Of a DNA stretch of 35,653 nucleotides, positions 128 to 22,848 are shown one piece after another. The position numbers and the translations under genes were made by a program. How positions within the stretch are numbered: position 1 is the first letter of the stretch; the number at the start of each line of letters is the position of its first letter. The notes under the pieces were generated by a model. It saw only the letters and a list, made by a program, of their open reading frames with translations, did no database searches and was not told where the DNA came from. Location of the stretch: positions 1-35,653 of IMG/VR virus record IMGVR_UViG_3300032163_000062. The stretch is one strand, 5' to 3'. The stretch comes from a virus.

Positions 128-361
128 GGAGATCCCTTTCGCTCCGTACGTCGGATAGCCTATGTTTTTCGGGTTCTCGCAACGCTCAATCATGTGATGC
201 CAAGTGCTGTATACCTTCGTTCCACGCATTCCGTGGTATTCGAAACTACGGCCTGGCTTCCCAGGATCTCCGTGCTTCCTGGTCCGGCAGTAGTGCATCG
301 GGCACATGCCGCGCCTTCTGCTGGCCCGATTGCATCCGGCAATGCTACAGGGCCGGCTCAT
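1..361 (-). CDS. HNH endonuclease, N-terminal part (gene continues across the contig junction)
   Basis: This is the first 120 codons of a 181-aa protein that starts with ATG at 361 and, after circular closure, continues from 35526 to 35342. The N-terminus carries a small Cys/His cluster (CSIAGC, then CPMHYC), probably a zinc site. A central block (STWHHMIERCENP, then YGAKGISVC, then WRESFIAFL) is typical of phage HNH proteins. The catalytic His-Asn-His-like segment, HQIDRIDSSGNYEPQNCRW, follows. The start overlaps the stop of the Mre11-Rad50 gene as ATGA, so it is translationally coupled. It could be a free-standing homing endonuclease or a packaging/recombination nuclease; the sequence does not decide. 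The in-frame continuation over the repeat is direct evidence for closure. Confidence 0.85.
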   Translation of the reverse strand, partial: MSRPCSIAGCNRASRRRGMCPMHYCRTRKHGDPGKPGRSFEYHGMRGTKVYSTWHHMIERCENPKNIGYPTYGAKGISVCGRWRESFIAFLADMGEPPSQKHQIDRIDSSGNYEPQNCRW

Positions 362-3300
362 TGTGTCCTCTGCATCATGATGCGTTGCGGAATCATTTCC
401 TGCGCCGATTCGCTGTGCGTGATGATTAGGGTGTGGCGTCGGCCGCTCTCGTTGTGCTCCACCTCGAGGAGTTGGAAGTACTTCGCGCGCGACTCAGGAT
501 CGAGCGCTCCATCGCATTCGTCCTTGAAGCATGTGAGGAAACGAATGCCGGTCGTCTTGTCTCTGACAATCGAGAACGCCGCATAGATCGCCTGTTTGAT
601 CCAGACCGACTCGCCGCCGGACAGCGTCTCAATCGGCTGCTCGCTCAGGAGTTCGTTGTCGAGAACGATGATTGCGAAGTCCTCGACTTGGCGCGTCTTG
701 CTGCCCTTCCCTGCCATGCGGGTCGTGCGCAACTCGATTGAGAAGCGCGATCCATACGCGGCAGAGAGCAGACGGTTGGCCACCTCCGCGATGCCCGGGC
801 CCATTGCGTCGAGCTCCAGCGCCTGGATTCCGTCCGGCCCGCATGCCGTCTCCAAGTACCGCCACTCCGCGGCCTCGGCCTCCATACTGACCAGTGAGGT
901 CCGCAACTCCTCGAGCTCGCATTTCTGCTTCGTTATCGCCGCGAGTTGCTTCTCGGCAGCCTCCAGCTTCGCCGCTGCGGTGGCCCGCTCTTCCTTCGCC
1001 GTCGTGTAGTCCGCGCGCGCCTGCTCGTACTGCTTCACGGCCTCCTCATGCGCGGGAGCGATTGACGGGTCCAGAGATGCGCGGATGCGCGCTGCCTTCT
1101 CGTTCAGTGAACGAGCGTCAGCCTCCAGCGTCTCGATGCGCGCGGTGAGCTCCGCGATCTTCGCCTCAGCCTGCGCCGCGGCCTCGAGGACTTTCTGCGC
1201 CGCCGTGATATCGAGTTGCCCCAGGGCCGCGCGGATCCGCGTGAGTTCCGTCTCGTCGGCCGGCGGGAGGTCGAGTGGCTCCGGTGCGGGAGGATCAATG
1301 ATTTCGATGATCTCCCCGTCCTTGCTCATGATCTGATTGCCGAGCGCGTGGATCTTCTCGCCGATCTCCCGGAATTGCGCCTGCTTCTCTTCCCGGCCGG
1401 CGTTGAGGTCTTTGTGCCAGTGCTCCCTTTCGGCGCCGCATTCCGGACATTCGTCGGTCAGAGGTTTTTCGACTTCCCCCTCGAGCCGCTTGTACTGCGA
1501 AAGAAAAACTGCATGATCTTGCTCCAGGCGCGCTTTCTCCGTGCGGAGCCGGGTGCGCTGCACTTCGAGTCCTCGGACATCAGCCGCATGAGCCTTGAGC
1601 GCGTCTGAGTACTCAGTGCTGCGTCGGGCTCGCTCGGCATTGATTTTGGATAGCCGCTCACTCTCCTTGCCCTCCTGCTCCTTGAGCTGCGCGTGATAAT
1701 CGATGTTCTCCTTTGCAATCTTGCGGCGATTAACGGCGTCATGAAAATCAATAATCTTCTTTCTGTCTTGTTCAGCCTGGTCGCCCTTACCAATCGATTC
1801 TTGCTCTGCCGCCTTCGCGTCCCGCTCGATCTGCTCCTGCTCGACCTTGAGCACGTGCAGGGTCTCGACTTTCTCGCGGCATTCCTTGCCCGTCGCCGTG
1901 AGGTCCTCAATCTTGGCGTCGGAGTTCTGGACCTCAGCCCTGCTCCAATCGATCCGGCCGGCGATCTCCGGCTCCTCAGCGACGAAGCGCTCCAGGAGCG
2001 TGACCTGCCCGCGGCCCGTCGTGATGCTACCCTCGATGGCTCCCGCGCGCGCCTTCGCGCTCTCCGCATATGCCTGGAGATAGTCCAGCCCCGCGAGCTC
2101 GCGAAAAATGGCCTTGCGCTCGCCCTTGGTGGCGTCAGATAGGTCGGGGTTGTTCTTCGTCGGCCGCTGGGAGACGAACGCGCTGCGGAGGAAGAGCGGC
2201 AGGCTTCCGATGAGGCCCGTGATCGCCTGCTCGTAGTCCTCCTTGCGGCCGTTCGTGAGTGGCTCCCAGTCGCCACGGATAACCCCCTCCGAATCGGGAG
2301 CGCCGGGCGTCTCCTCGGAGGCAGTTGCGGCGCGGAACAGGTGGTACTTCACGACCCCGCTGGCGTTCGCGCCGTCGATCTCCATGAGCGCGCGGTACTC
2401 GGTCCCGGTGCGCTCGTCGCAAAACCAGAGCTCGCGCGTAGAATCCCGCAGGCGGAAATGGTCCTGGAGCTTCCCGTCCCGCGTGAGCATGCAGGGGTAC
2501 GGGTGCATGTTTTCGATGACCGTTGACTTCGCAGATCCGTTGACGCCGATCATGGCAATCAGACCGGGATCGTAGCCGTCGAGGTTGTAATCGACTTCGT
2601 CCTTGCGCTGGCCCTTCCACACGCCAATGGCGCCCCGGAGCCGGAGCCGGCGCAGGCGGAAGTGGAAGCCCGCGGCCGCGCCCCGCTCGGTGGCTTCGCG
2701 CTCCAGGAGATCGGCCTTGAGCAGAACGGATTCGGCGACGGGCTGATCAACTGTGCGATTTCCCGGAGGCTCGAAATTGGATGCCTCCGCATAGACCGTG
2801 ACTTTCTCCCGCAGCCGGTGCTTCTCCGTGATCTCCGCAGCGCGCACAGTCTCTGTCGGGATCAGCTCGACGGTAACGCGGGAGCCGGGCAGAGCGCCGG
2901 TTGCGAGATAGGCTTCGAGCATGGCGTCCGTGTCGATCTGCGCCGCCTGCTCTTTCGTCGCCCGGTAGCAGACCCACGCCTGCACGCCTTCGACCTCAGG
3001 GCCGGCGGGCTCGGGCCAGGTCACCACGAATTTGCAGCGCCGCGGGTGAGGATAGGGAACGCGGGTGACGGCGGCATCGCACGCACCCAGCCCGAGTTCG
3101 ACCAGGTTGAAGCCGCTCTGCCCCAGCTCGCCCCAGTTCACCGGGTACGCGCTGCCTGGGTAGTACGCCGGCAGGCCGGGGATCTGCTGCGCCAGGTGAA
3201 TATCTCCCAGCGCGTAGTAATCAGCGCCTACCGGAGCGAGATCCTCACGGCCGATCGTGATGCTCCCCGCTCCGATGACCTGGCCGTTCTGCATGCTCGC

Positions 3301-3906
3301 GCCCTCGACGGGACCGTGGTAGAGCATGACGCATGGCAGCTCCGGGTGCTGCGCCCGGATCGCGCCCAGGCCCAAGAGGATCGAGCGCAGCGCGATTTTC
3401 ATCGCCTCGCCCGTCTCCCGCGCGTTCGCGGCCTCCTTGCCCGCGAGGAGCCATTCACGCGAAGGTTCGGGGCAGCCGAGAATGAGGAGTCGCGGCTTGT
3501 CTTTATAATCGAGATTTGGGCTGTAATGGATTTCCATATCTTTCGTCACAGAGACTACATCGCCGCCTTCGTCGAGCAAGTATGGAACGCCGGCTGTGAG
3601 TATGACGAAAGAATGTTCGGCTCCGAGTGCCATCAGCGCATCGTAGCAGCCCGGCAGGTCATGCGTAGGCGTGCCGGCCACTGCCGCTATCGGGCAGACG
3701 TCCAGGATGCGCTGGATCACCGCCAGTAGCGCGGGAAAGCCGCCCGCCGTGCTGTTCTGTGCACCGCGGTCAAAGAGGTCGCCGGAGATCGTGACAAACG
3801 CGGGCTTCTCCCGCTCGGCCGTCTCTGCCAAAGTCGTGAGGCTCGCAAGCGCCTCGACCTGATGCTCGCGGGAGAAATGGATATCGGCTGTGTGGAGGAT
3901 TTTCAT
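358..3906 (-). CDS. Single-chain Mre11-Rad50 (SbcD-SbcC) fusion
   Basis: A 1182-aa protein joining an SbcD/Mre11-type metallophosphoesterase (about residues 1-390) to an SbcC/Rad50-type SMC ATPase (about 400-1182). The nuclease half shows D8-x-H10, GDLFDRG (D43), GTPTHD (78-83, in place of GNHD), an LYHGP block and GDIH. The ATPase half has Walker A GVNGSAKST at 454-462 (Ala459 where Gly is usual), long coiled coils with a zinc hook CPEC (820-823), signature LSGGE (1095-1099), Walker B FKDECDGALD and an H-loop THSES. In the usual system the two halves are separate subunits that resect or clip DNA ends. A fusion fixes 1:1 stoichiometry. It is coupled by ATGA to the 93-aa gene upstream and to the HNH gene downstream. 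The role is inferred to be phage recombination or end processing. Confidence 0.93.
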   Translation of the reverse strand: MKILHTADIHFSREHQVEALASLTTLAETAEREKPAFVTISGDLFDRGAQNSTAGGFPALLAVIQRILDVCPIAAVAGTPTHDLPGCYDALMALGAEHSFVILTAGVPYLLDEGGDVVSVTKDMEIHYSPNLDYKDKPRLLILGCPEPSREWLLAGKEAANARETGEAMKIALRSILLGLGAIRAQHPELPCVMLYHGPVEGASMQNGQVIGAGSITIGREDLAPVGADYYALGDIHLAQQIPGLPAYYPGSAYPVNWGELGQSGFNLVELGLGACDAAVTRVPYPHPRRCKFVVTWPEPAGPEVEGVQAWVCYRATKEQAAQIDTDAMLEAYLATGALPGSRVTVELIPTETVRAAEITEKHRLREKVTVYAEASNFEPPGNRTVDQPVAESVLLKADLLEREATERGAAAGFHFRLRRLRLRGAIGVWKGQRKDEVDYNLDGYDPGLIAMIGVNGSAKSTVIENMHPYPCMLTRDGKLQDHFRLRDSTRELWFCDERTGTEYRALMEIDGANASGVVKYHLFRAATASEETPGAPDSEGVIRGDWEPLTNGRKEDYEQAITGLIGSLPLFLRSAFVSQRPTKNNPDLSDATKGERKAIFRELAGLDYLQAYAESAKARAGAIEGSITTGRGQVTLLERFVAEEPEIAGRIDWSRAEVQNSDAKIEDLTATGKECREKVETLHVLKVEQEQIERDAKAAEQESIGKGDQAEQDRKKIIDFHDAVNRRKIAKENIDYHAQLKEQEGKESERLSKINAERARRSTEYSDALKAHAADVRGLEVQRTRLRTEKARLEQDHAVFLSQYKRLEGEVEKPLTDECPECGAEREHWHKDLNAGREEKQAQFREIGEKIHALGNQIMSKDGEIIEIIDPPAPEPLDLPPADETELTRIRAALGQLDITAAQKVLEAAAQAEAKIAELTARIETLEADARSLNEKAARIRASLDPSIAPAHEEAVKQYEQARADYTTAKEERATAAAKLEAAEKQLAAITKQKCELEELRTSLVSMEAEAAEWRYLETACGPDGIQALELDAMGPGIAEVANRLLSAAYGSRFSIELRTTRMAGKGSKTRQVEDFAIIVLDNELLSEQPIETLSGGESVWIKQAIYAAFSIVRDKTTGIRFLTCFKDECDGALDPESRAKYFQLLEVEHNESGRRHTLIITHSESAQEMIPQRIMMQRTQ

Positions 3907-9242: not shown

Positions 9243-9503
9243 TCATTGTCCGAGAATGGTAGTCTTGCCAGTCTTGTAGGCATAGGCCGCGAGAGCACTG
9301 TAGATGAACGCCATCAGCGCGATCTTCAACGCGCCCTCGAACCAGAACTTCGCCACTGCGGCGGGGATCGCCAGCATGAGCGGCAGAAGCGGATACCACC
9401 GTTCAAGCGTGGCCTTCGGGTCAAAAACCGTGGTGAGAATCTTGGCCAGACCTACGATTGCCGCAACAAGGGCAACGTCAATTCCGATAGATGTTAAGTC
9501 CAT
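9243..9503 (-). CDS. Holin-like protein with three membrane helices
   Basis: An 86-aa protein with hydrophobic segments at about residues 5-27 (IGIDVALVAAIVGLAKILTT), 39-56 (PLLPLMLAIPAAVAKFWF) and 58-76 (ALKIALMAFIYSALAAYAY), charged loops between them and a short polar tail. Size, topology and position two genes after the M23 peptidase fit a class I holin, which would open the inner membrane for the endolysin. A ribosome site GGGAGAGG precedes the ATG. Function is inferred from topology and context. Confidence 0.75.
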   Translation of the reverse strand: MDLTSIGIDVALVAAIVGLAKILTTVFDPKATLERWYPLLPLMLAIPAAVAKFWFEGALKIALMAFIYSALAAYAYKTGKTTILGQ

Positions 9504-9512
9504 AACCTCTCC

Positions 9513-9731
9513 CTATGAGTTTAATTCTGGGAATAGATCATCTATACTTTTCGCCCGCTTGACTCCAATGCCGAGCCGGGCAAGCCATATCGTCCATCGT
9601 GTCCGCAAGTTCGGTTTTTCGTTCGTCCAGATTTTCGATAGACTGAACTCAGACATCAGCGAACAATACGTAATCGGTGGTTCGCCCAGGTCAAGAGTTT
9701 GCGCATCGGATGAAGTGACTGATGTTCGCAT
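9513..9731 (-). CDS. Hypothetical 72-aa protein between endolysin and holin
   Basis: The ATG at 9731 has GGGAGGA about 4 nt upstream. The protein has an Asp/Ser/Thr-rich N-terminus, then SLSKIWTNEKPNLRTRWTIW and an amphipathic Arg-rich section ending SIDDLFPELNS. No signal, membrane helix or known domain is evident. Its place inside the lysis module suggests an antiholin or regulator, but nothing else supports that. Confidence 0.6.
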   Translation of the reverse strand: MRTSVTSSDAQTLDLGEPPITYCSLMSEFSLSKIWTNEKPNLRTRWTIWLARLGIGVKRAKSIDDLFPELNS

Positions 9732-9741
9732 ATCTTCCTCC

Positions 9742-10161
9742 CTATGGATATTTCTTTGGAACTTGCATCACGATTTCCGGGTCTACCCACCGCCTGATTT
9801 GCAAATGGACATGCGGGCGCGGTGCTTCTTTCGGCACAGCGGCCAGAGAACCCAATATCTGCCCCATGGTCACGACCTGCCCAACCCGCACGCGCACCAA
9901 GTCAAGGTGACTGTAGGTTATCTGCACCGGGTCCACCGCGAGGTCCTTGTTGACCACGTCCACCGTCATCCCGCCGGGGTCCGCCGCAGGGTAGACCGCC
10001 TGCACCGTGCCGGGCACGCTGTTGAGCACCTCCTGCCCGACGGTCCCCGCGAAGTCCAGCCCCATGTGGTTCGGGCGGATCACCGAGCGGAAAAGATCGC
10101 TCTTGGTGAATGTCGCCAGCGGGTACACAAAATCTACGCCGAGAATCCAGTTCTTGTTCAC
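9742..10161 (-). CDS. M23-family (LytM) peptidase, probable endolysin
   Basis: A 139-aa protein with the M23 zinc-metallopeptidase signature: HMGLD (H32, D36), YSHLD (H85) and PHVHLQI (H117, H119), joined by the usual beta-sandwich pattern (GTVQAVYPA, VGQVVTMGQILGSL). These enzymes cut peptide cross-links in peptidoglycan. The small size, equal to a single catalytic domain without a cell-wall-binding repeat, and the holin three hundred bases downstream argue for host lysis rather than a tail-tip enzyme. The GTG start overlaps the upstream stop (GTGA, 10158-10161) with an AAGGTGGG-like site upstream. No signal peptide is present, so export depends on the holin. Confidence 0.88.
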   Translation of the reverse strand: MNKNWILGVDFVYPLATFTKSDLFRSVIRPNHMGLDFAGTVGQEVLNSVPGTVQAVYPAADPGGMTVDVVNKDLAVDPVQITYSHLDLVRVRVGQVVTMGQILGSLAAVPKEAPRPHVHLQIRRWVDPEIVMQVPKKYP

Positions 10162-10436
10162 TTATTCCCACCTTTTTGGCTAACCACGCCATTAGTTACG
10201 ATCTTAGTCAGATCGGAATATGCGTCGGTTATTTCCGGCGCGACATCGCCGTTGTGCTCTTGTACATGCAGTCCGAGGAGAGCCCACACGCCCCGAGTAA
10301 GAATAGGCACAACGCGCTCAAGCCTGTCGATCCGTTTGGGGCTACGCCACTGCCGGGCCACAAGCGCAGCGAGCGCGACAAGAATGAGCGCCCCTACTGT
10401 GCTGCCGATCCCGATGATAATTCCGTCTGTCATCAT
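10158..10436 (-). CDS. Small single-span membrane protein of the lysis module
   Basis: A 92-aa protein starting MMTDGIIIGIGSTVGALILV: an N-terminal membrane helix (about residues 6-28) followed by a basic stretch (RQWRSPKRIDRLERVV) and a soluble tail. GGGAGGG lies immediately before two adjacent ATGs (10436, 10433), of which the second has the better spacing. It could be a second holin, a pinholin or a membrane regulator of lysis. It is coupled to the M23 peptidase by GTGA. Confidence 0.65.
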   Translation of the reverse strand: MMTDGIIIGIGSTVGALILVALAALVARQWRSPKRIDRLERVVPILTRGVWALLGLHVQEHNGDVAPEITDAYSDLTKIVTNGVVSQKGGNK

Positions 10437-10481
10437 CCCTCCCTCGCTCCATCTCCACGGTGTAGCGTCATCGTTGCTCTC

Positions 10482-11396
10482 CTAACTGTCATAGCCCAAA
10501 TAATTAGCGTACAAAGAGACATTGTTGTAGAGGGTTCCCGTATACAATTTCCTGCTCGCGCCTATTCTTATAAACCCTCTCCAACTAGCCTGTTGTATCT
10601 GAGCCGCCCCAGATGCCGCTTTATGCCCTACTCGTAAAGAAAATCCAACCTTGTAGCTATTGTTGAACCCGGTTGCCCCAGCATCATAATCCCACGCGAT
10701 TACTTCATCCGCAGCATTTTCAAGAGTTGTACTCTTATAACCCACGAGGTATATTTCGGCTCTCTTCGCTCCTACGGGAAGTCCAAGAGCCGCCAGATCC
10801 CAGATGTGCGGAGCAGATGTCAAGTCGGTTAGTCCATTGAGATCAAACCCCGTGAGTGTCCTATTTGCCTCATGCGGCGTCCCGAGGCTCGGCTCCAGCG
10901 CAACAGGCTGGACGACGCCGCCGACGATCTGCCAACCCGCAGCCATTCCACGAACGCGGCAATACTGATTGATCAGCCCGACGCGGCATGTCGTGGCCGA
11001 CCCGCCGGGCCAGAGAATCAACTCTGCGCCCTCGCCATCTAGGATTATTTCCCCCGCTCCCGAATCAATTTTGCTAACCTCGATTTCTCTTCCGAGATTA
11101 TCTGCGAGCGTTGGCAATGCAATGGTACGATCAGAGGCACCTGTAGTGACGGAGATAGTCTCGTATCCGTCATTGTCGAGGACTGTATACCCCGCGCTGG
11201 ATAACACCTTCTCGGTCACCCGCGCGGAACGGTAGGCCCATTTCAGAGAGTTCCATGCCGTCGAGCCATTCCCTACTTTGTGGAGTCCGAGGAGCGCGGC
11301 GTCCGTAACAAATCCAAGCTCCCCCAAAAGGAGCACCGGGTTCGCCGCGGCCCATTCCGCCAGCGTCCCCCTGCGAAGCTGTATCTGACTTGCCAT
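10482..11396 (-). CDS. Tail fibre / receptor-binding protein, Mtd-like N-terminus
   Basis: A 304-aa protein beginning MASQIQLRRGTLAEWAAANP followed by VLLLGELGFVTDAALLGLHKVGNG. This is the short N-terminal motif of many phage tail fibres (IQLRRGT..eW...NPvLa.GE.G..tD), known from the major tropism determinant family. The middle is Gly/Thr/Ser-rich beta structure and the C-terminus reads as a separate lectin- or knob-like domain (AEIYLVGYKSTTLENAADE ... YKVGFSLRVGH). It probably forms a trimeric distal fibre that binds the host surface. It is the last structural gene before lysis. Confidence 0.8.
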   Translation of the reverse strand: MASQIQLRRGTLAEWAAANPVLLLGELGFVTDAALLGLHKVGNGSTAWNSLKWAYRSARVTEKVLSSAGYTVLDNDGYETISVTTGASDRTIALPTLADNLGREIEVSKIDSGAGEIILDGEGAELILWPGGSATTCRVGLINQYCRVRGMAAGWQIVGGVVQPVALEPSLGTPHEANRTLTGFDLNGLTDLTSAPHIWDLAALGLPVGAKRAEIYLVGYKSTTLENAADEVIAWDYDAGATGFNNSYKVGFSLRVGHKAASGAAQIQQASWRGFIRIGASRKLYTGTLYNNVSLYANYLGYDS

Positions 11397-16009: not shown

Positions 16010-16984
16010 CTATGTGATGTATTTCGTCGCCCTGGCATCGCGCAGGGTGATCGTCCAGAGCGGATTTGCGGCATTTTCATCCGCGCTCCATTCGAATGTC
16101 TGCCGCAGCCGATTGCCGTCTTGGATCGAAGGGTCGGCCTTCGTGATATAGACGAGCGGGATAGCGAGTGTGAGGGTATAGAACTTCCCCGTGAGAACGA
16201 CATCCGTGCTCGTCCAGACAAAAGAAAGTGAGGTCGTTATCCCTCCCTTGAAAACGGTCGAGCGCGTGGCATCGCTCGTCGTGTCATAGAGAACCTCGAG
16301 CGTCCCCGTGAGCGCGCGGGCTTGAGCCTCGATCTCTGCCATGTTCGACCCCGCCGCCTTCAGCGTGAACAGGTCGTCCTCGACGTTGTTGTTGAAGCGG
16401 ATCGTCCCGCCCTCGACATCATAGGGAGCGCCCCCCACCTGGGCTGCGCACATCGGGAAGCTGAAAGGTTTTAGCGAGGACCTGGAGAGCGTGTCGATGG
16501 TGTCTGTGATCTCATCGTATCCGCGGACAGAGAATGTCGCCCGCAGATAGTCGAGCTTTTTGACGTCCAGAGTCATGCTGTCGAGCTTGCAGCCCACGTA
16601 ACCATAGACCGCGGCGATGCGGTCCACCGTCAGTGTGAGCTTCGGCATGCTCGATGCCGCGACGGCCGACATCGGGGTGAAAACATGGTCATAGACAGCG
16701 CTGCCGCTCACCGCCGCAGGCGATGCCTCCGCGCCCATGACGGCAGAGATCAGCAGGCCGATCTCATCGGGGTAGGCAATGACGGAAAAGTCTCCCTCGA
16801 TCTTCACGCCGAGGATATCCATCACGCCCCCGCCGCGAGTCCCCGTGAGGATGTCGCGCCGCTTGTATGCCGGCACGTAGCGCAAATTTTCCTTCGTGAA
16901 GGAGAGTGCCTGCGACTGCGCAACGATCGTCGAGAAGTTCGATTGAACGCCAGCCTGCAACTTCGCCCCGGTTCCTGAATACAT
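16010..16984 (-). CDS. Major tail tube protein
   Basis: A 324-aa protein with the beta-rich pattern of siphophage tail-tube subunits: KLTLTVDRIAAVYGYVGCKL, DSMTLDVKKLDYLRATFSVR (the G.k.ds..l......l..t.s..G signature) and a second domain (TSLSFVWTSTDVVLTGKFYT). The N-terminal arm (MYSGTGAKLQAGVQSNFSTI) is typical. It sits between the tail terminator and the chaperone pair, as expected. The extra ~100 residues relative to minimal tube proteins may form an exposed domain. It should be one of the most abundant virion proteins. Confidence 0.85.
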   Translation of the reverse strand: MYSGTGAKLQAGVQSNFSTIVAQSQALSFTKENLRYVPAYKRRDILTGTRGGGVMDILGVKIEGDFSVIAYPDEIGLLISAVMGAEASPAAVSGSAVYDHVFTPMSAVAASSMPKLTLTVDRIAAVYGYVGCKLDSMTLDVKKLDYLRATFSVRGYDEITDTIDTLSRSSLKPFSFPMCAAQVGGAPYDVEGGTIRFNNNVEDDLFTLKAAGSNMAEIEAQARALTGTLEVLYDTTSDATRSTVFKGGITTSLSFVWTSTDVVLTGKFYTLTLAIPLVYITKADPSIQDGNRLRQTFEWSADENAANPLWTITLRDARATKYIT

Positions 16985-17490: not shown

Positions 17491-18089
17491 CAGCTTTTCC
17501 CCCATTCTGCCGTGATGAACTCCTCGACAGTCCGTGCCGCGATGTCCTGCGCTTGCCCGCTGGCGAAAGTGTAGTCAAGCGCGGACCTCAGATAGGGCCG
17601 GCGTGGGATCGTGACCGAGCGCTTCAGGGCATACATGAGCACCATGGCCCCGCCGCGGTTGGCCTTATTCCTCGCGAGCCATATCGGCCGTCTTGCCAGG
17701 AAGAGCCGCCCATCCGACGATCTGATGGGGAAAAGGTCCGTAAACGCGCGCGGGGACTTGCCCTGCGCCATTTGATCGAGAGGGATCGCCAAGTATTTTC
17801 CATGCCTCGGCACGATCGTGCCGCCGTACTCGTGAATCCTTGCATAGGGAATGTTTGATCCGATGCGCACAGAGAAATTGCCGTCCATAACATAGGAAAT
17901 GGATTTCCTGAGAAGCCCGGTGCGCACATGAAGCGCCTGGCCTGTGAGGAAGTATTGCTTCGAGTTGCCGACGACGCGCTCTGCGATCCTGCGGAGCACG
18001 ATATTATGCATCCGCGGTATTTTTTTCAGCCAATCGTCGAATGCGGCCCGGACTTTCGTATCGTCGATCTCAATGCGGTAGTCCAGCAT
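17490..18089 (-). CDS. Head-tail joining protein, HK97 gp10-like
   Basis: A 199-aa protein beginning LDYRIEIDDTKVRAAFDDW. The segment GNSKQYFLTGQALHVRTGLL RKSISY followed by IPYARIHEYGGTI is the hallmark of the HK97 gp10 family (v.TG.Lr.Si ... YA..vEyGt). It is longer than the usual ~130 aa because of an insertion carrying basic and hydrophobic residues (LFLARRPIWLARNKANRGG). The ATG at 18089 is chosen for its TGATG joint with the connector gene; an upstream extension is a shadow of that gene. Confidence 0.82.
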   Translation of the reverse strand: MLDYRIEIDDTKVRAAFDDWLKKIPRMHNIVLRRIAERVVGNSKQYFLTGQALHVRTGLLRKSISYVMDGNFSVRIGSNIPYARIHEYGGTIVPRHGKYLAIPLDQMAQGKSPRAFTDLFPIRSSDGRLFLARRPIWLARNKANRGGAMVLMYALKRSVTIPRRPYLRSALDYTFASGQAQDIAARTVEEFITAEWGKS

Positions 18090-18700
18090 CAGGATGCCGC
18101 CTTCCAATGCGAGACATAGGGATCGAGGAGATCGCGCGCGATCTTCGGCGCACCCGAGTCCAAGACTGTAATGCCTCCCTGCAGGATATTGATGCCGGTA
18201 TGCGCCCAGGCCTTCGTGGTGCGCCGCTGCCAGATGTAGCCGAGCAGCTCGTAGGAGCAAAGGACCAGGTCATAAGGGACGGGATCAGTGCTGTGCGCAT
18301 AGCCCGCCTCATATTCAACTTTGATATTCTGGATTCCCTCGGTGAAGACGGAGCTTACGAGCGCGACAATGCCGGGATCGGATTCGATGCGGATGTCCGC
18401 GGAGGCGAATTGTGTATCCGCGCCGAATGCGCCATCGAGATCATCATAGAGCTTGATTTCGGCGGCCGTGGAATTGATCGGATAGTTCTTCAGAAAAAGA
18501 CGTTCGCGGCCGCTGCCGTTGTAATACTCCGTCAGCGTGCGATTCTTCAACTTTCGCTTCGTATAACGTTCCATCCAGTAGACGACGCAGGCGAGAAGTT
18601 GCCCGCACATATTCTCCGTCGCTGCATCGCTGGACGTGATGTCGAGGTATAACTTCGCATCGGCCAAGGTGACGAGGAAATAGGTGCTTTCGTATGTCAT
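18089..18700 (-). CDS. Head-tail connector protein (gp6-like)
   Basis: A 203-aa protein with the gp6-type layout: LADAKLYLDITSSDAATENM at the start (the ...aK.yLrid...eD..i... pattern), a helix with aromatic and basic residues (VVYWMERYTKRKLKNRTLTE), a loop LKNYPINSTAAEIKLYDD, strands IKVEYEAGYA, and C-terminal helices. It would form a ring under the portal. It overlaps the radical SAM gene by ATGA and the gp10-like gene by TGATG. Confidence 0.82.
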   Translation of the reverse strand: MTYESTYFLVTLADAKLYLDITSSDAATENMCGQLLACVVYWMERYTKRKLKNRTLTEYYNGSGRERLFLKNYPINSTAAEIKLYDDLDGAFGADTQFASADIRIESDPGIVALVSSVFTEGIQNIKVEYEAGYAHSTDPVPYDLVLCSYELLGYIWQRRTTKAWAHTGINILQGGITVLDSGAPKIARDLLDPYVSHWKAAS

Positions 18701-19515
18701 GCCGTCCTCGATTTCACGTTGAAGAACTTCCCCTCTGTGCTGGTATTGTAATTGCAGCGCTCACATAGGCCTATCCATTTCCCCGCTGCGTGCTCGCGCT
18801 TTTTCTCCAGCCGCGCGGGATTCTCGATGAGCTGCTCGATACTGTCCGTGAGGATGTTTCCGAAATCCGTCACCGCGTGGAAATCATGGGCGCACGATAC
18901 AACCTTCCCGCTGGGCAAGATGCAGATTTTGTCCAGATAATCACAGGGGATGCGCGCGACACGCCGGAATAGACGCAGTGTTTTGTCTTGCTTGCCCTGG
19001 TTGTCATATTTGTAGGAGACGCGGATCCCGCCGGGGAAGTCGTGCCACTCGCGGAGGAGGTCGGTCTCGGTGCCCTGATTCCCTTCGTACATGAGGCAGT
19101 CGAGACGTACCTCTTTTATTTTGCGCAGCGCATCGTATTGCGCGCGGATGTTCGCCCGTACCGAATCGAATGATGCCCCGACCGTGTCCTCATACGTCTC
19201 GCGCGTTCCTCCGTTGAAGCTGATCACAACCTCATCGACATCTGGGATCGTGTCTAGGGCGATCGCGTTCGTCGTCATCGCGAGCCAAACGCGATTGTCA
19301 CGATGAATGAGCTCGAAATAGGCCCGGTGATCTGATAGGCTGTAGAGATCGCCGGTATTGTTCAGCATGACCTTCGTGATCTGCGGCGCAGCCACGAGCT
19401 TCTTCCAGATGAAGGCGAAGTTCTCAAGACTCATGGTATCCCCGGGGATCCCCCAGACGGGGCAGGTCTTGCATTTCGCATTGCAGCATGTGGTCACGCT
19501 GATCTTGGCATCCAT
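18697..19515 (-). CDS. Radical SAM enzyme with SPASM-like C-terminus
   Basis: A 272-aa protein. Near the N-terminus CNAKCKTC (Cys11, 15, 18) is the CxxxCxxC site for the SAM-binding 4Fe-4S cluster. Core barrel features follow (KVMLNNTGDLYSL, VWLAMTTNA, DEVVISFNGGTRETYEDTVG). The C-terminal part has CDYLDKIC, ILPSGKVVSC, a GNI segment and CERC, as in SPASM or twitch domains that hold auxiliary clusters. Such enzymes modify peptides, sugars or lipids by radical chemistry. It is the last of three coupled enzymes placed between capsid and connector genes, next to a methyltransferase and a glycosyltransferase, so a joint modification pathway is inferred. The substrate is unknown; the virion surface or a host glycan are options. 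Confidence 0.9.
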   Translation of the reverse strand: MDAKISVTTCCNAKCKTCPVWGIPGDTMSLENFAFIWKKLVAAPQITKVMLNNTGDLYSLSDHRAYFELIHRDNRVWLAMTTNAIALDTIPDVDEVVISFNGGTRETYEDTVGASFDSVRANIRAQYDALRKIKEVRLDCLMYEGNQGTETDLLREWHDFPGGIRVSYKYDNQGKQDKTLRLFRRVARIPCDYLDKICILPSGKVVSCAHDFHAVTDFGNILTDSIEQLIENPARLEKKREHAAGKWIGLCERCNYNTSTEGKFFNVKSRTA

Positions 19516-20321
19516 TAGTGGATTCTCCTGATGAGCACGTTCCGGATATACCCTCCATAAGCAGAGGTGAACACGGTGCGATCCGCGAAAATCTCCGCGT
19601 CGAGCTGGCAGAGACGTTCGACGAACACGCTCGATGTCTCCATGGTGAACTCGCGCAGGTGACCGTGTGATACGGCGCGGGGTAGCGGCAGGTCCCTGTT
19701 ATAGTAGCGAGCATTGGCACCGTTCAGCGGGAACGACAGGAGTAGGCATCCCCTATGCTCCACGAGAGAGAACAGCCAGTCTGCCACCGCATGCAGATCG
19801 CAGGGGAGGTGCTCAAGGACCTCAGTTGCAATGACGAGCTCGGCCGCCGGGAGCGCCGGCATGTCGCACAGGTTGATCTCGACGTTTTTCGAGCGCTCCC
19901 CGAGATCGCGATATTTCCCCAGGCAACCGAACGTCACGCGGGAGGCATGCCTGAGAGCCCAATACCACGACGTGAAGGGAAACGGCGTGCCTAGGTCGTA
20001 GACGCTCTCGGGGATGATCCCCTCGTCCTCCATGAGATGCCAGAAGGCTAGCTGCGCCTGAAATCTCGGCAAATGGCCATTGAAGTACGGCAGGAGATCG
20101 GAAGGTCCGACGCTGGCGTCTCCGGGAAGCCAGGATGGAAGTTTCGCCTGGACGGCCGCGATGTATTCCGCATCGCCGTCCTTCGGGATGATAGGTTGCA
20201 CAACCTCAATCGGCTCCGGAATCGCGGGTCTCTCGGCGGCGTTCTCCCGTTCGACCGCCGCAAAGTAGTCGATGTTTCGAGGGTACCTTTTCCGCAATTC
20301 CAGGAGCCTGTCCTTTGTCAT
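19515..20321 (-). CDS. Class I SAM-dependent methyltransferase-like protein
   Basis: A 268-aa protein. The N-terminal 90 residues (MTKDRLLELRKRYPRNIDYF onward) are not catalytic. They are followed by a Rossmann-like segment: VYDLGTPFPFTSWYWALRHA (a degenerate motif I), RVTFGCLGKYRDLG, VEINLCDMPALPAAELVIA and TEVLEHLPCDLHAVADWL, the last being the EvlEHl block of methyltransferases. The glycine-rich loop is poor, so cofactor binding needs proof. The C-terminus contains RYYNRDLPLPRAVSHGHLRE, like sugar or O-methyltransferases. It is coupled to the glycosyltransferase (ATGA) and to the radical SAM gene (TAATG). Confidence 0.8.
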   Translation of the reverse strand: MTKDRLLELRKRYPRNIDYFAAVERENAAERPAIPEPIEVVQPIIPKDGDAEYIAAVQAKLPSWLPGDASVGPSDLLPYFNGHLPRFQAQLAFWHLMEDEGIIPESVYDLGTPFPFTSWYWALRHASRVTFGCLGKYRDLGERSKNVEINLCDMPALPAAELVIATEVLEHLPCDLHAVADWLFSLVEHRGCLLLSFPLNGANARYYNRDLPLPRAVSHGHLREFTMETSSVFVERLCQLDAEIFADRTVFTSAYGGYIRNVLIRRIH

Positions 20322-21346
20322 GCGGCCCTTTCCTTCCTGCCGCCGGCATAGCGATCAATGATCGCTATGAACTTTTGCGCTGACTGCGCCCAGGTGAAAT
20401 CGTTGCGGATGCGCTCCGATGCGCGCCGCCCTCGCCTTAGCGCCTCGTCGTAGTCCGAATAGACCTGCGCCATTCTGCGCGCCAGGTGTGGAGCATCTGC
20501 GGTCACGGCCTCCGTGGTGTGATAGTTTTCAAGGTGTCCGTCCTCACACCGCTTCACCGTCTGCACCTCCATCATGCTGAAGCGGAGTGGATAACCTTCC
20601 CTCTCGCTGATGAAATCCTTCGGCCCGCTCCAGGGCGTATAAATGCAGGGCAACCCCGTGGCCATAGCCTCCGCCAGCGTGAGACCGAAACCCTCCCCCA
20701 TGGTCGGGAACAGGAAGCAGTGCGCGGCATGATAGAGCACGACGAGATTCTCCAGCGAGTAATTTCGGGTGTCCATGAAGAAATGATTCTTCATCGATGA
20801 GATGAGCCGCTCGGCCTTCGTCGTCTGCGTCGTCTTCAGGATTAGGACGGACCTTTCGAACTCGGCCCTGTAGCGATCCCGGAAGATCGCCCAGGCGATG
20901 GCCACGTGCTCATATCCCTTGCGCGGATTGCTCGCCCCGTTCCATAGGTACGTGAATTGCTCTTTGGCGCTCGGGAATGCTCGCTGGTAGAACGGGAAGC
21001 GTGCGCTGTCGACCCCTTCGGGGCAGCAGACAATAGGGCGCTTCGTGTACTTCGCGAAGACGTGGATATTGTGCGTGCATGGGACGACGATGAGGTCGGG
21101 GAACTGCAGCGGCGCGATCCACTCCTTCGGCAACGACTCTCCCTCGTACATCGTGTAGAGCACGTTGAACTTTCCGGGCCTGGGCTCGTAGCCGGAGGGC
21201 ACGACGATGTGGACGGCGACGTCTGCTGAGTCCGTGATCTCGACTCCCTCGCCCAGGAGCGCCGCCTTGAGGTTGCGCTGGTGGGTTGAGTAGCCGTAGC
21301 CGTTGCCCGTCGTATTCCAGTCAGCCGTCCACTGGAGCTTCATCAT
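20318..21346 (-). CDS. GT4-family glycosyltransferase
   Basis: A 342-aa GT-B protein. It begins MMKLQWTADWNTTGNGYGYS and has a central LWNGASNPRKGYEHVAIAWA donor-side segment and the retaining GT4 signature EGFGLTLAE (E-x7-E) followed by AMATGLPCIYTPWSGPKDFI. It ends with the usual basic helix (RRGRRASERIRNDFTWAQSA). The start at 21346 overlaps the stop of the zinc-ribbon gene (ATGA) with AAGGGG upstream; an open extension to 21484 is a shadow. GT4 enzymes move a sugar from a nucleotide donor. Possible acceptors include the capsid protein encoded just upstream, a host surface glycan or phage DNA. Confidence 0.92.
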   Translation of the reverse strand: MMKLQWTADWNTTGNGYGYSTHQRNLKAALLGEGVEITDSADVAVHIVVPSGYEPRPGKFNVLYTMYEGESLPKEWIAPLQFPDLIVVPCTHNIHVFAKYTKRPIVCCPEGVDSARFPFYQRAFPSAKEQFTYLWNGASNPRKGYEHVAIAWAIFRDRYRAEFERSVLILKTTQTTKAERLISSMKNHFFMDTRNYSLENLVVLYHAAHCFLFPTMGEGFGLTLAEAMATGLPCIYTPWSGPKDFISEREGYPLRFSMMEVQTVKRCEDGHLENYHTTEAVTADAPHLARRMAQVYSDYDEALRRGRRASERIRNDFTWAQSAQKFIAIIDRYAGGRKERAA

Positions 21347-21507
21347 TTCCCCTTGAGATGGACCCGGGGGTCTTCCGGCCCCCAGGCCCTTTCCATGTCG
21401 ATGGTCTTCGGGACCGTGGCGACTCCGCACCTCTTGCAGTGCATCATCACCACGGCCCAATAGACCCGATGGCACGCGGGACACTCCCGCGAGGTCCTGA
21501 GATCCAC
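21343..21507 (-). CDS. 54-aa zinc-ribbon mini-protein
   Basis: A small gene read from GTG 21507 to TGA 21343, filling the gap between the capsid and glycosyltransferase genes. It encodes two cysteine pairs, CPAC (residues 9-12) and CKRC (24-27), 11 residues apart with WAVVMMH between, typical of a zinc ribbon, then a charged tail ending LKGK. Its stop overlaps the next ATG. No strong ribosome site precedes the GTG; translation may depend on the capsid gene, whose stop is 6 nt upstream. It could be a metal-binding adaptor for the cassette; function unknown. Confidence 0.72.
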   Translation of the reverse strand: MDLRTSRECPACHRVYWAVVMMHCKRCGVATVPKTIDMERAWGPEDPRVHLKGK

Positions 21508-21513
21508 GCCGGT

Positions 21514-22848
21514 CTAAGCCGAGGTCACGATCCTGCCGTACATGTTCGCCAGGTGCTGCGCGAACGCGTACCGGGTGAAGACCGCGAAGATCGTCTGATG
21601 CGCGAGCCCCTTCGTGTACGGGTCCACGAAGAAGGAGATCGCGTCGGAGCGCTTCCCGATGAGGAAGCCGTACAGATCTCCGAAGACGATGAACCCCGTG
21701 CTGGCCGCGCTCGTGCTCGGTGCCTGCACAACCTCCTGTGTGGGGAATCCGAGAATCGATCCGGGGGCGGCGGCGACCATCGACGGAAGGAAGAGAGGCC
21801 GCTTGTTGCCGTCCTGCAGGTTGTAGATCGTGTTCCAGAGAGTTGAGCGGTGGGAGTAGAACTTGAACCGCGAGCCCTTCACCACCTTCGCGATAATGGC
21901 CCGGATATCGGACTCCAGGAGCATCGAGAATGCCGCGCTGCTGCTTCCGAACGCGACTGAGTAGCCGGCGCTCTTGAACACTCCGCTCACCGGCGAGCCC
22001 GGTCCGAGGAACACACAGGAGTCGACGGTCTGCCCGACCGCCTCCGAGAACTGGTCGAGGAGCTGGGCGACGAATCCGCCGCTGACCACCGCATCCTCGA
22101 GGTCCTCGTTCGTCACGTGCGTGTAGCCGTCCAGGCGTTTGGCCGTCAGCGTGGTCTGGTCGACCGTCGGAGAGACGACCGCTGCCGCCGTTGCCTCGGT
22201 ATTGACCGCCACACCGCTGAGGGATGAAACAGTCGCGTTCTCCTTGTTCACGAGTTTCACGTCTGAGCGCATGTTCTCGATGCGGCAGTTCTGCAGCGCA
22301 ACAGACTCGTCGCGCGCATAGGCGTCCCAGACATCGCTCTGCTCGGTCGGCGTCAGGAATCCACCTGCCGTTGTCGTGCCCTCGTTCAGGCCTTCCTTGA
22401 AGTGAACGTCGACCTGGTGCCCGGGCTGTTTCAGGGCCTGGTCATAGAGATCGATCCAAAATTTTGCGACCCGCTCCGCGCGTTCAGGATCCGCCTTGAA
22501 CTCCGCATGGATCACGGCGTGCTTCTCGCGGCTCTTGTCCGTGCCGCGCATGAGAGTCGCGATCTCCGCCTTGAGCCTGTAGCCCTTGTATATGCCCGGG
22601 GTGCCGACTGTGATGCCGCTGCCCGCGGGCGCGTGCCCTCCATCGATGCTGGCGCCGAGTCCCTGAAGCTGCGAACGCAGCTTCGCGCTCTCGCGCGTCG
22701 CCTCGTCGAGCTTCACGCTCGCCTTGGTCTCCGCCTTGAGGCGTTCTTGCTCGGCGATCTCCTTGAGGATTTCGTCCTCGAACGCCTGCTTCTTGGCCGG
22801 GTCGGTTTCCTTCGCGAGCAGTTCGCGAAGGAGTTTCAGTTTGTCCAT
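21514..22848 (-). CDS. Major capsid protein, HK97 fold
   Basis: A 444-aa protein. Residues 1-65 form a charged coiled coil (LKLLRELLAKETDPAKKQAF, ILKEIAEQERLKAETKASVK), the delta or scaffold domain that is usually removed. The rest has HK97 landmarks: LTPTEQSDVWDAYARDESVA, then VSPTVDQTTLTAKRLDGYTH (strand pair leading to the spine), VTNEDLEDAVVSGGFVAQLL, and the C-terminal axial part GFIVFGDLYGFLIGKRSDAI to FTRYAFAQHLANMYGRIVTS. It follows directly after the protease. It should be the most abundant virion protein. Confidence 0.93.
   Translation of the reverse strand: MDKLKLLRELLAKETDPAKKQAFEDEILKEIAEQERLKAETKASVKLDEATRESAKLRSQLQGLGASIDGGHAPAGSGITVGTPGIYKGYRLKAEIATLMRGTDKSREKHAVIHAEFKADPERAERVAKFWIDLYDQALKQPGHQVDVHFKEGLNEGTTTAGGFLTPTEQSDVWDAYARDESVALQNCRIENMRSDVKLVNKENATVSSLSGVAVNTEATAAAVVSPTVDQTTLTAKRLDGYTHVTNEDLEDAVVSGGFVAQLLDQFSEAVGQTVDSCVFLGPGSPVSGVFKSAGYSVAFGSSSAAFSMLLESDIRAIIAKVVKGSRFKFYSHRSTLWNTIYNLQDGNKRPLFLPSMVAAAPGSILGFPTQEVVQAPSTSAASTGFIVFGDLYGFLIGKRSDAISFFVDPYTKGLAHQTIFAVFTRYAFAQHLANMYGRIVTSA

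Follow-up and report, generated by a model that had tools for sequence, protein, structure and literature searches.

Glycosylation of phage virions is barely characterised and is known mainly from mycobacteriophages, in which phage-encoded glycosyltransferases (GTs) have been linked to glycans at the C-termini of capsid and tail-tube subunits (Freeman 2023, Cell Host Microbe, as cited in PMC12619734). Phage GTs also occur in the hypervariable regions of pelagimyophages, where close relatives differ by cassettes of radical S-adenosylmethionine (SAM) genes (PMC7029224). Here a GT-containing gene island was analysed in one uncultured viral record, IMGVR_UViG_3300032163_000062, whose 35,653 bases are referred to below as the window. 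Four genes, encoding a zinc-ribbon mini-protein, a GT4-family GT, a SAM methyltransferase-fold protein (MT) and a radical SAM enzyme (rSAM), lie between the gene of the major capsid protein and that of the head-tail adaptor. On balance the evidence leans towards a resident, diversifying island whose products make a tailored sugar and attach it to the virion shell, either the capsid or the tail tube.

The window carries a siphovirus morphogenesis operon on its minus strand, with genes for terminase, portal, prohead protease, HK97-fold capsid, head-tail adaptor, neck proteins, a tail protein and a tape-measure-like protein. The capsid-adaptor joint is filled by four minus-strand open reading frames (ORFs) with starts overlapping stops (Table 1). 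The joints are ATGATG between the mini-protein and GT, ATGA between GT and MT, TAATG between MT and rSAM, and ATGA between rSAM and the adaptor, whose gene overlaps the rSAM stop by 4 bases. The ORFs, profiles and joint sequences confirmed a set of four genes between capsid and connector with ATGA/TAATG joints, as had been described in a sequence-only reading of the window. The GC content was even throughout the island, and there was therefore no sign of recent import.

Relatives were found by alignment-driven scans of uncultured viral contigs, which were annotated with BLAST searches and profiles derived from the window; the E-values of these scans are relative to the candidates. All close relatives were metagenomic fragments, and many of the contigs were short. 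The scans yielded about 45 uncultured viral contigs with island genes; 30 GT loci with 42-62% identity to the GT of the window were found in the GT scan, and more than 20 distinct rSAM contigs over two scans. When one rSAM, capsid or portal sequence served as the query, scans of the viral contigs gave no matches. In named phages, tblastn detected no relatives of rSAM or MT, and the GT relatives found (142 matches in 50,697 phage records) were distant only.

In nearly every contig with visible context, GT was located directly downstream of the capsid gene, preceded in some by an accessory island gene. A second seat, between the genes of the tail terminator and the major tail protein, was occupied in L004/L005, L139 and L140 and by the second GT of L046. 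No GT or rSAM relative was found outside the virion operon among the viral-contig scan loci with visible context. The genes had been read from the sequence as a coupled modification cassette, a view that scattered relatives with unrelated neighbours would contradict; instead, co-location with virion genes held across the relatives, with every informative viral-contig relative at the capsid or tail-tube seat, and the choice of target between virion and host glycan rests on position. Tallies anchored on GT are biased towards contigs carrying it. The portal-anchored scan is independent of GT and, among the matches listed, placed GT at the capsid joint in six of the seven complete, strongly matching capsid contigs (L045, L046, L048, L053, L057 and L115, not L055), and the more distant heads among these matches were mostly without GT there. 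The island at the capsid-adaptor joint is the rule in this head lineage, and the earlier expectation that virion genes are contiguous at this joint was not borne out.

GT was the constant member of the island, and its partners were swapped. These included a sulfotransferase, an NAD-sugar epimerase, a GDP-mannose 4,6-dehydratase (7e-113), a GNT-I/GT2-like GT, several methyltransferases, unrelated rSAM families and the zinc ribbon. Portal, capsid, GT, adaptor and tail proteins of L021 and L022 were mostly 82-92% identical (74% for the most distal), and their DNA was 81% colinear up to the end of GT and from the start of the adaptor gene; the rSAM gene between these two points was replaced by an unrelated rSAM. 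Similarly, L029 and L033 were colinear bar the exact gain or loss of one sulfotransferase gene, and L008, which carries the nearest relative of the window GT, showed nothing matching MT between its GT and rSAM genes. Structural-looking proteins, possibly head fibres or decoration proteins, were encoded between a second type of rSAM (rSAM2, described below) and the adaptor in L018 (6674-8493; 361 amino acids, no PHROG match) and in L015 (12097-14468; 462 amino acids, repetitive), and a transglutaminase-like protein was encoded within the island of L025 (1064-1513).

The ratio of nonsynonymous to synonymous polymorphism (pN/pS) of GT and rSAM between relatives was 0.05-0.17, and values within pairs were 0.05 for rSAM versus 0.05 for the capsid gene and 0.08 versus 0.16. 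Purifying selection on rSAM is as strong as on the capsid gene. Gene-level homology, the low pN/pS of GT and rSAM, and conserved placement in dozens of contigs indicate that the four ORFs are not due to chance. Distances between GTs followed portal distances (r 0.90) as closely as did capsid distances (r 0.89), and GT is therefore resident, not passing.

The GT was above the Pfam cut-offs for PF00534 (46.5 bits versus 26.4; 3.9e-12) and PF20706 (51.9 versus 26; 7.8e-14) and matched phrog_2170 at 1.4e-27. Its E-x7-E donor-site motif (E218 and E226) was invariant in the alignment with relatives at 47-49% identity, and its prediction as a genuine GT4 glycosyltransferase (GT-B, retaining) is solid. 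By sequence, MT matched Methyltransf_23 (PF13489) at 1.6e-4, under the cut-off, and its AlphaFold2 (AF2) model (pLDDT 76.7) matched many SAM methyltransferases in the PDB (best E 9e-8), making this a putative methyltransferase with a weak assignment by sequence and a moderate one by model. MT relatives were seen only in L003 and L011. The mini-protein had no Pfam family match above cut-off; its zinc-ribbon pattern recurred directly upstream of GT in L003, L010, L013, L014, L028 and L030 and was absent from most other islands.

For rSAM, the SPASM profile PF13186 (1.6e-6) and the Radical_SAM profile PF04055 (4e-4) were matched. The cysteines of its CX3CX2C motif (C11, C15 and C18) and four at its C-terminus (C191-x11-G-x4-C208 ... 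C251-x2-C254), seven overall, were invariant in 18 homologues at 40-55% identity. The seven-cysteine SPASM motif reads CX9-15GX4C-gap-CX2CX5CX3C-gap-C and binds two auxiliary clusters (PMC6231123); in rSAM, CX11GX4C...CX2C alone was conserved. This truncated motif with four C-terminal cysteines therefore indicates not a full SPASM domain but a Twitch domain, which holds a single auxiliary cluster. Of the enzyme identities proposed in the sequence-only reading, GT4 and radical SAM were upheld by profiles and motifs, the methyltransferase stayed putative, favoured by its model but weak by sequence, and the SPASM label gave way to Twitch.

The AF2 model of rSAM (pLDDT 93.5) matched known radical SAM structures, among them BlsE, DesII and SpeY, from sugar- or aminoglycoside-type pathways, BtrN, and the peptide-acting SkfB, anSME and SuiB. 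This mixture of sugar-pathway and peptide-acting enzymes means that the substrate of rSAM is not settled by its fold. By sequence, the only radical SAM relative among PDB structures was BtrN (4.3e-6; PDB 4M7T). This dehydrogenase takes part in butirosin biosynthesis and oxidises a hydroxyl on a sugar-like ring (PMC9012708). BtrN resembles rSAM in size, in the CX3CX2C core and in a four-cysteine C-terminal Twitch domain (TM-score 0.62/0.67), but is only 15% identical and belongs to an aminoglycoside pathway. Among 84,980 species genomes, one contig matched rSAM and was itself phage; the family looks phage-restricted. The rSAM2 family was seen in the same slot in L018 (5803-6636), L016 (11208-12038) and L021 (7436-8263), and weakly resembled prokaryotic viperins (PADLOC pVip 1e-10), from which extra C-terminal cysteines set it apart.

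In the reading we favour, the island would be co-translated with the capsid gene late in infection. GT would take a sugar from its activated donor and join it to a virion protein present in large amounts, here most likely the capsid protein, with MT and rSAM then presumably tailoring that sugar. The probable step of rSAM would be oxidation (or deoxygenation or epimerisation) at a hydroxyl, in the manner of BtrN and its sugar-like ring, and the product would be a particle bearing an unusual glycan. The sulfotransferase, epimerase, dehydratase, GTs and methyltransferases found as partners were counted in support of sugar tailoring. The position of the two seats, next to the genes of the two main shell proteins, is why a virion target is preferred to the host surface; these are the kinds of protein reported in PMC12619734 to be glycosylated in Mycobacterium phages. 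It is gene position, then, that points to the virion. The tail protein of the window is probably the tail tube, judging by its position, and would be the second candidate acceptor. Swaps of tailoring enzymes between neighbouring phages would vary the outer chemistry of the particle among close relatives, and such variation would be expected, and could be of benefit, if the particle surface is recognised, be it by the host surface, competing receptors, grazers or animal immunity.

A more specific proposal, which we put forward tentatively and at rather less than even confidence, is that of a "particle serotype" locus, found across a widespread small-siphovirus lineage, in which an ever-present GT4, encoded next to the capsid or tail-tube protein, would act with exchangeable sugar-tailoring enzymes (radical-SAM oxidation, sulfation) to give a variable virion glycan changed by replacement of single genes. 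If true, it would add the first virion glycan tailored by radical SAM chemistry, and phages would have a counterpart of surface-antigen switching.

Several observations weigh against a tailored virion glycan. Soluble GT4 enzymes can also use lipid or polysaccharide acceptors. The distant GT relatives of Streptomyces and Rhodococcus phages sit outside the capsid region, and some of the peptide- or protein-acting fold matches of rSAM (the SkfB, anSME and SuiB group) have better E-values than BtrN. GT and capsid distances were correlated (Mantel r 0.84), but the partial r was about 0 after correction for portal distance, and a specific co-adaptation of GT and capsid was rejected. The "...TAAS" tail at the C-terminus of the capsid protein is also present in the GT-less relatives L064 and L075; as a dedicated glycan acceptor it is thus not diagnostic.

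The alternative that survived best, and that we nevertheless judge unlikely, is modification of a host surface glycan late in infection (lipopolysaccharide O-chain, capsule, teichoic acid or S-layer), which would block superinfection, help progeny to get free of debris or conceal the cell, with the late operon providing timing only. Sets of sulfotransferase, epimerase and GT are typical of bacterial glycan loci, which the content of the island resembles, and gene swapping would fit receptor variation too. This is also the usual reading of phage GT islands, as for the GTs and rSAM cassettes of the pelagimyophage hypervariable regions, taken to modify the O-chain (PMC7029224). However, the seats alternate specifically between the capsid and the tail-tube gene, which is not predicted by a host-glycan model. 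In addition, no integrase or resolvase was found in the window or in 13 related viral contigs (fragments), and lysogenic conversion is therefore unlikely.

It is distinctly improbable that rSAM, together with MT, acts directly on a virion protein or peptide, by side-chain chemistry like that of anSME or of the enzymes of ribosomally synthesised and post-translationally modified peptides (RiPPs), with GT glycosylating the new site. The fold matches to SkfB, anSME and SuiB and the small protein encoded upstream of GT would suit such chemistry. However, the predicted model of rSAM starts at the first barrel strand and appears to lack both a RiPP recognition element (RRE) and an N-terminal peptide-binding domain, the mini-protein, a zinc ribbon, occurs in a minority of islands, the accessory partners are sugar enzymes, and the closest sequence relative of rSAM is BtrN. 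No small ORF that could encode a RiPP precursor was common to all islands, and with neither RRE nor precursor a role as RiPP maturase was rejected.

A collection of ordinary morons, that is, unrelated accessory genes gathered where insertion is tolerated and sharing no pathway, is very unlikely. The accessory genes are indeed highly varied, and structural-looking proteins occur in the islands of L015, L018 and L046, but GT is constant, an rSAM, of this family or an unrelated one, is repeatedly found next to it, selection on the island genes is strong and the contents are almost all sugar chemistry. Least probable of all is glycosylation of hypermodified phage DNA bases against restriction: DNA-glycosylating virus GTs are known (Pyle 2024, cited in PMC12619734), but the island travels with virion genes, not replication genes, the DNA methyltransferase encoded in the window is instead an ordinary N6/N4 one, no thymidylate-synthase-like gene was found in the window or the 13 related viral contigs, and a Tet/JBP search without a match was uninformative, since its control gave no signal either.

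Table 1. Island genes, flanking genes and candidate acceptors in the window.
Feature	Coordinates	Strand	Support and role
Zinc-ribbon mini-protein, 54 amino acids, CPxC...CxxC	21343..21507	-	optional island member
GT4 glycosyltransferase (GT)	20318..21346	-	PF00534, PF20706, phrog_2170; constant island core
Class I SAM methyltransferase-fold protein (MT)	19515..20321	-	PF13489 sub-threshold and AF2 model; variable member
Radical SAM enzyme (rSAM), C-terminal Twitch domain, one auxiliary Fe-S cluster	18697..19515	-	PF13186, PF04055
Major capsid protein, HK97 fold	21514..22848	-	PF05065 1.4e-24, phrog_10 6e-29; candidate acceptor
Head-tail adaptor	18089..18700	-	phrog_442 6e-16; downstream border of the island
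Tail protein, probable tail tube	16010..16984	-	phrog_290 ("minor tail protein") 2.8e-24; second candidate acceptor

Elsewhere in the window, an 1182-amino-acid protein (358-3906, minus strand) combines an N-terminal metallophosphoesterase with a C-terminal SbcC-like part and is an apparent SbcD-SbcC fusion. A tail-fibre-like protein (10482-11396, minus strand) has an Mtd_N domain (N-terminus of the major tropism determinant), and no reverse transcriptase was present among the ORFs scanned. A frame of 393 amino acids without family match (9304-10485, plus strand) runs opposite to the minus-strand genome and could be either a shadow ORF or a genuine gene. A PADLOC search of the window proteins for anti-phage defence gave no match.

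If the favoured reading is true, virion glycosylation would be a broad trait that is still evolving, its chemistry (radical SAM, sulfation) would be unexpected, and it would have been overlooked for want of cultured phages. The fixed places that sugar enzymes occupy in phage heads would be accounted for, the capsid and tail tube would become testable acceptors, and one would have to ask who reads the surface of the particle. For radical chemistry that modifies sugars, the enzymes would also be a compact source restricted to phages.

The sequence-only reading knew of no described phage capsid system of this kind, a statement that holds in part. Glycosylation of virions by phages is already known, capsid and tail-tube glycosylation in Mycobacterium phages being reported in PMC12619734; tailoring by rSAM or sulfotransferase and the swapping of genes within a slot appear new, and no description of such an island of GT, rSAM, methylation and sulfation was found in the open-licence literature. 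The window-type GTs share with the mycobacteriophage system their association with capsid and tail-tube subunits, here as neighbours of the genes. They differ in that none of the 142 tblastn matches at 1e-5 among the 50,697 phage records was in a Mycobacterium phage, and in their predicted coupling, within the head operon, to a Twitch rSAM and a swappable sulfotransferase, epimerase or MT. The GT4 relative gp29 of Arthrobacter phage Kitkat (28% identity) likewise lies between the tail terminator and downstream tail genes, but is a lone GT with neither rSAM nor MT adjoining. The pelagimyophage regions share phage GTs and the variation of rSAM cassettes between close relatives; their cassettes, however, are located in the tail-fibre region, whereas the window type occupies the capsid and tail-tube joints of small siphoviruses.

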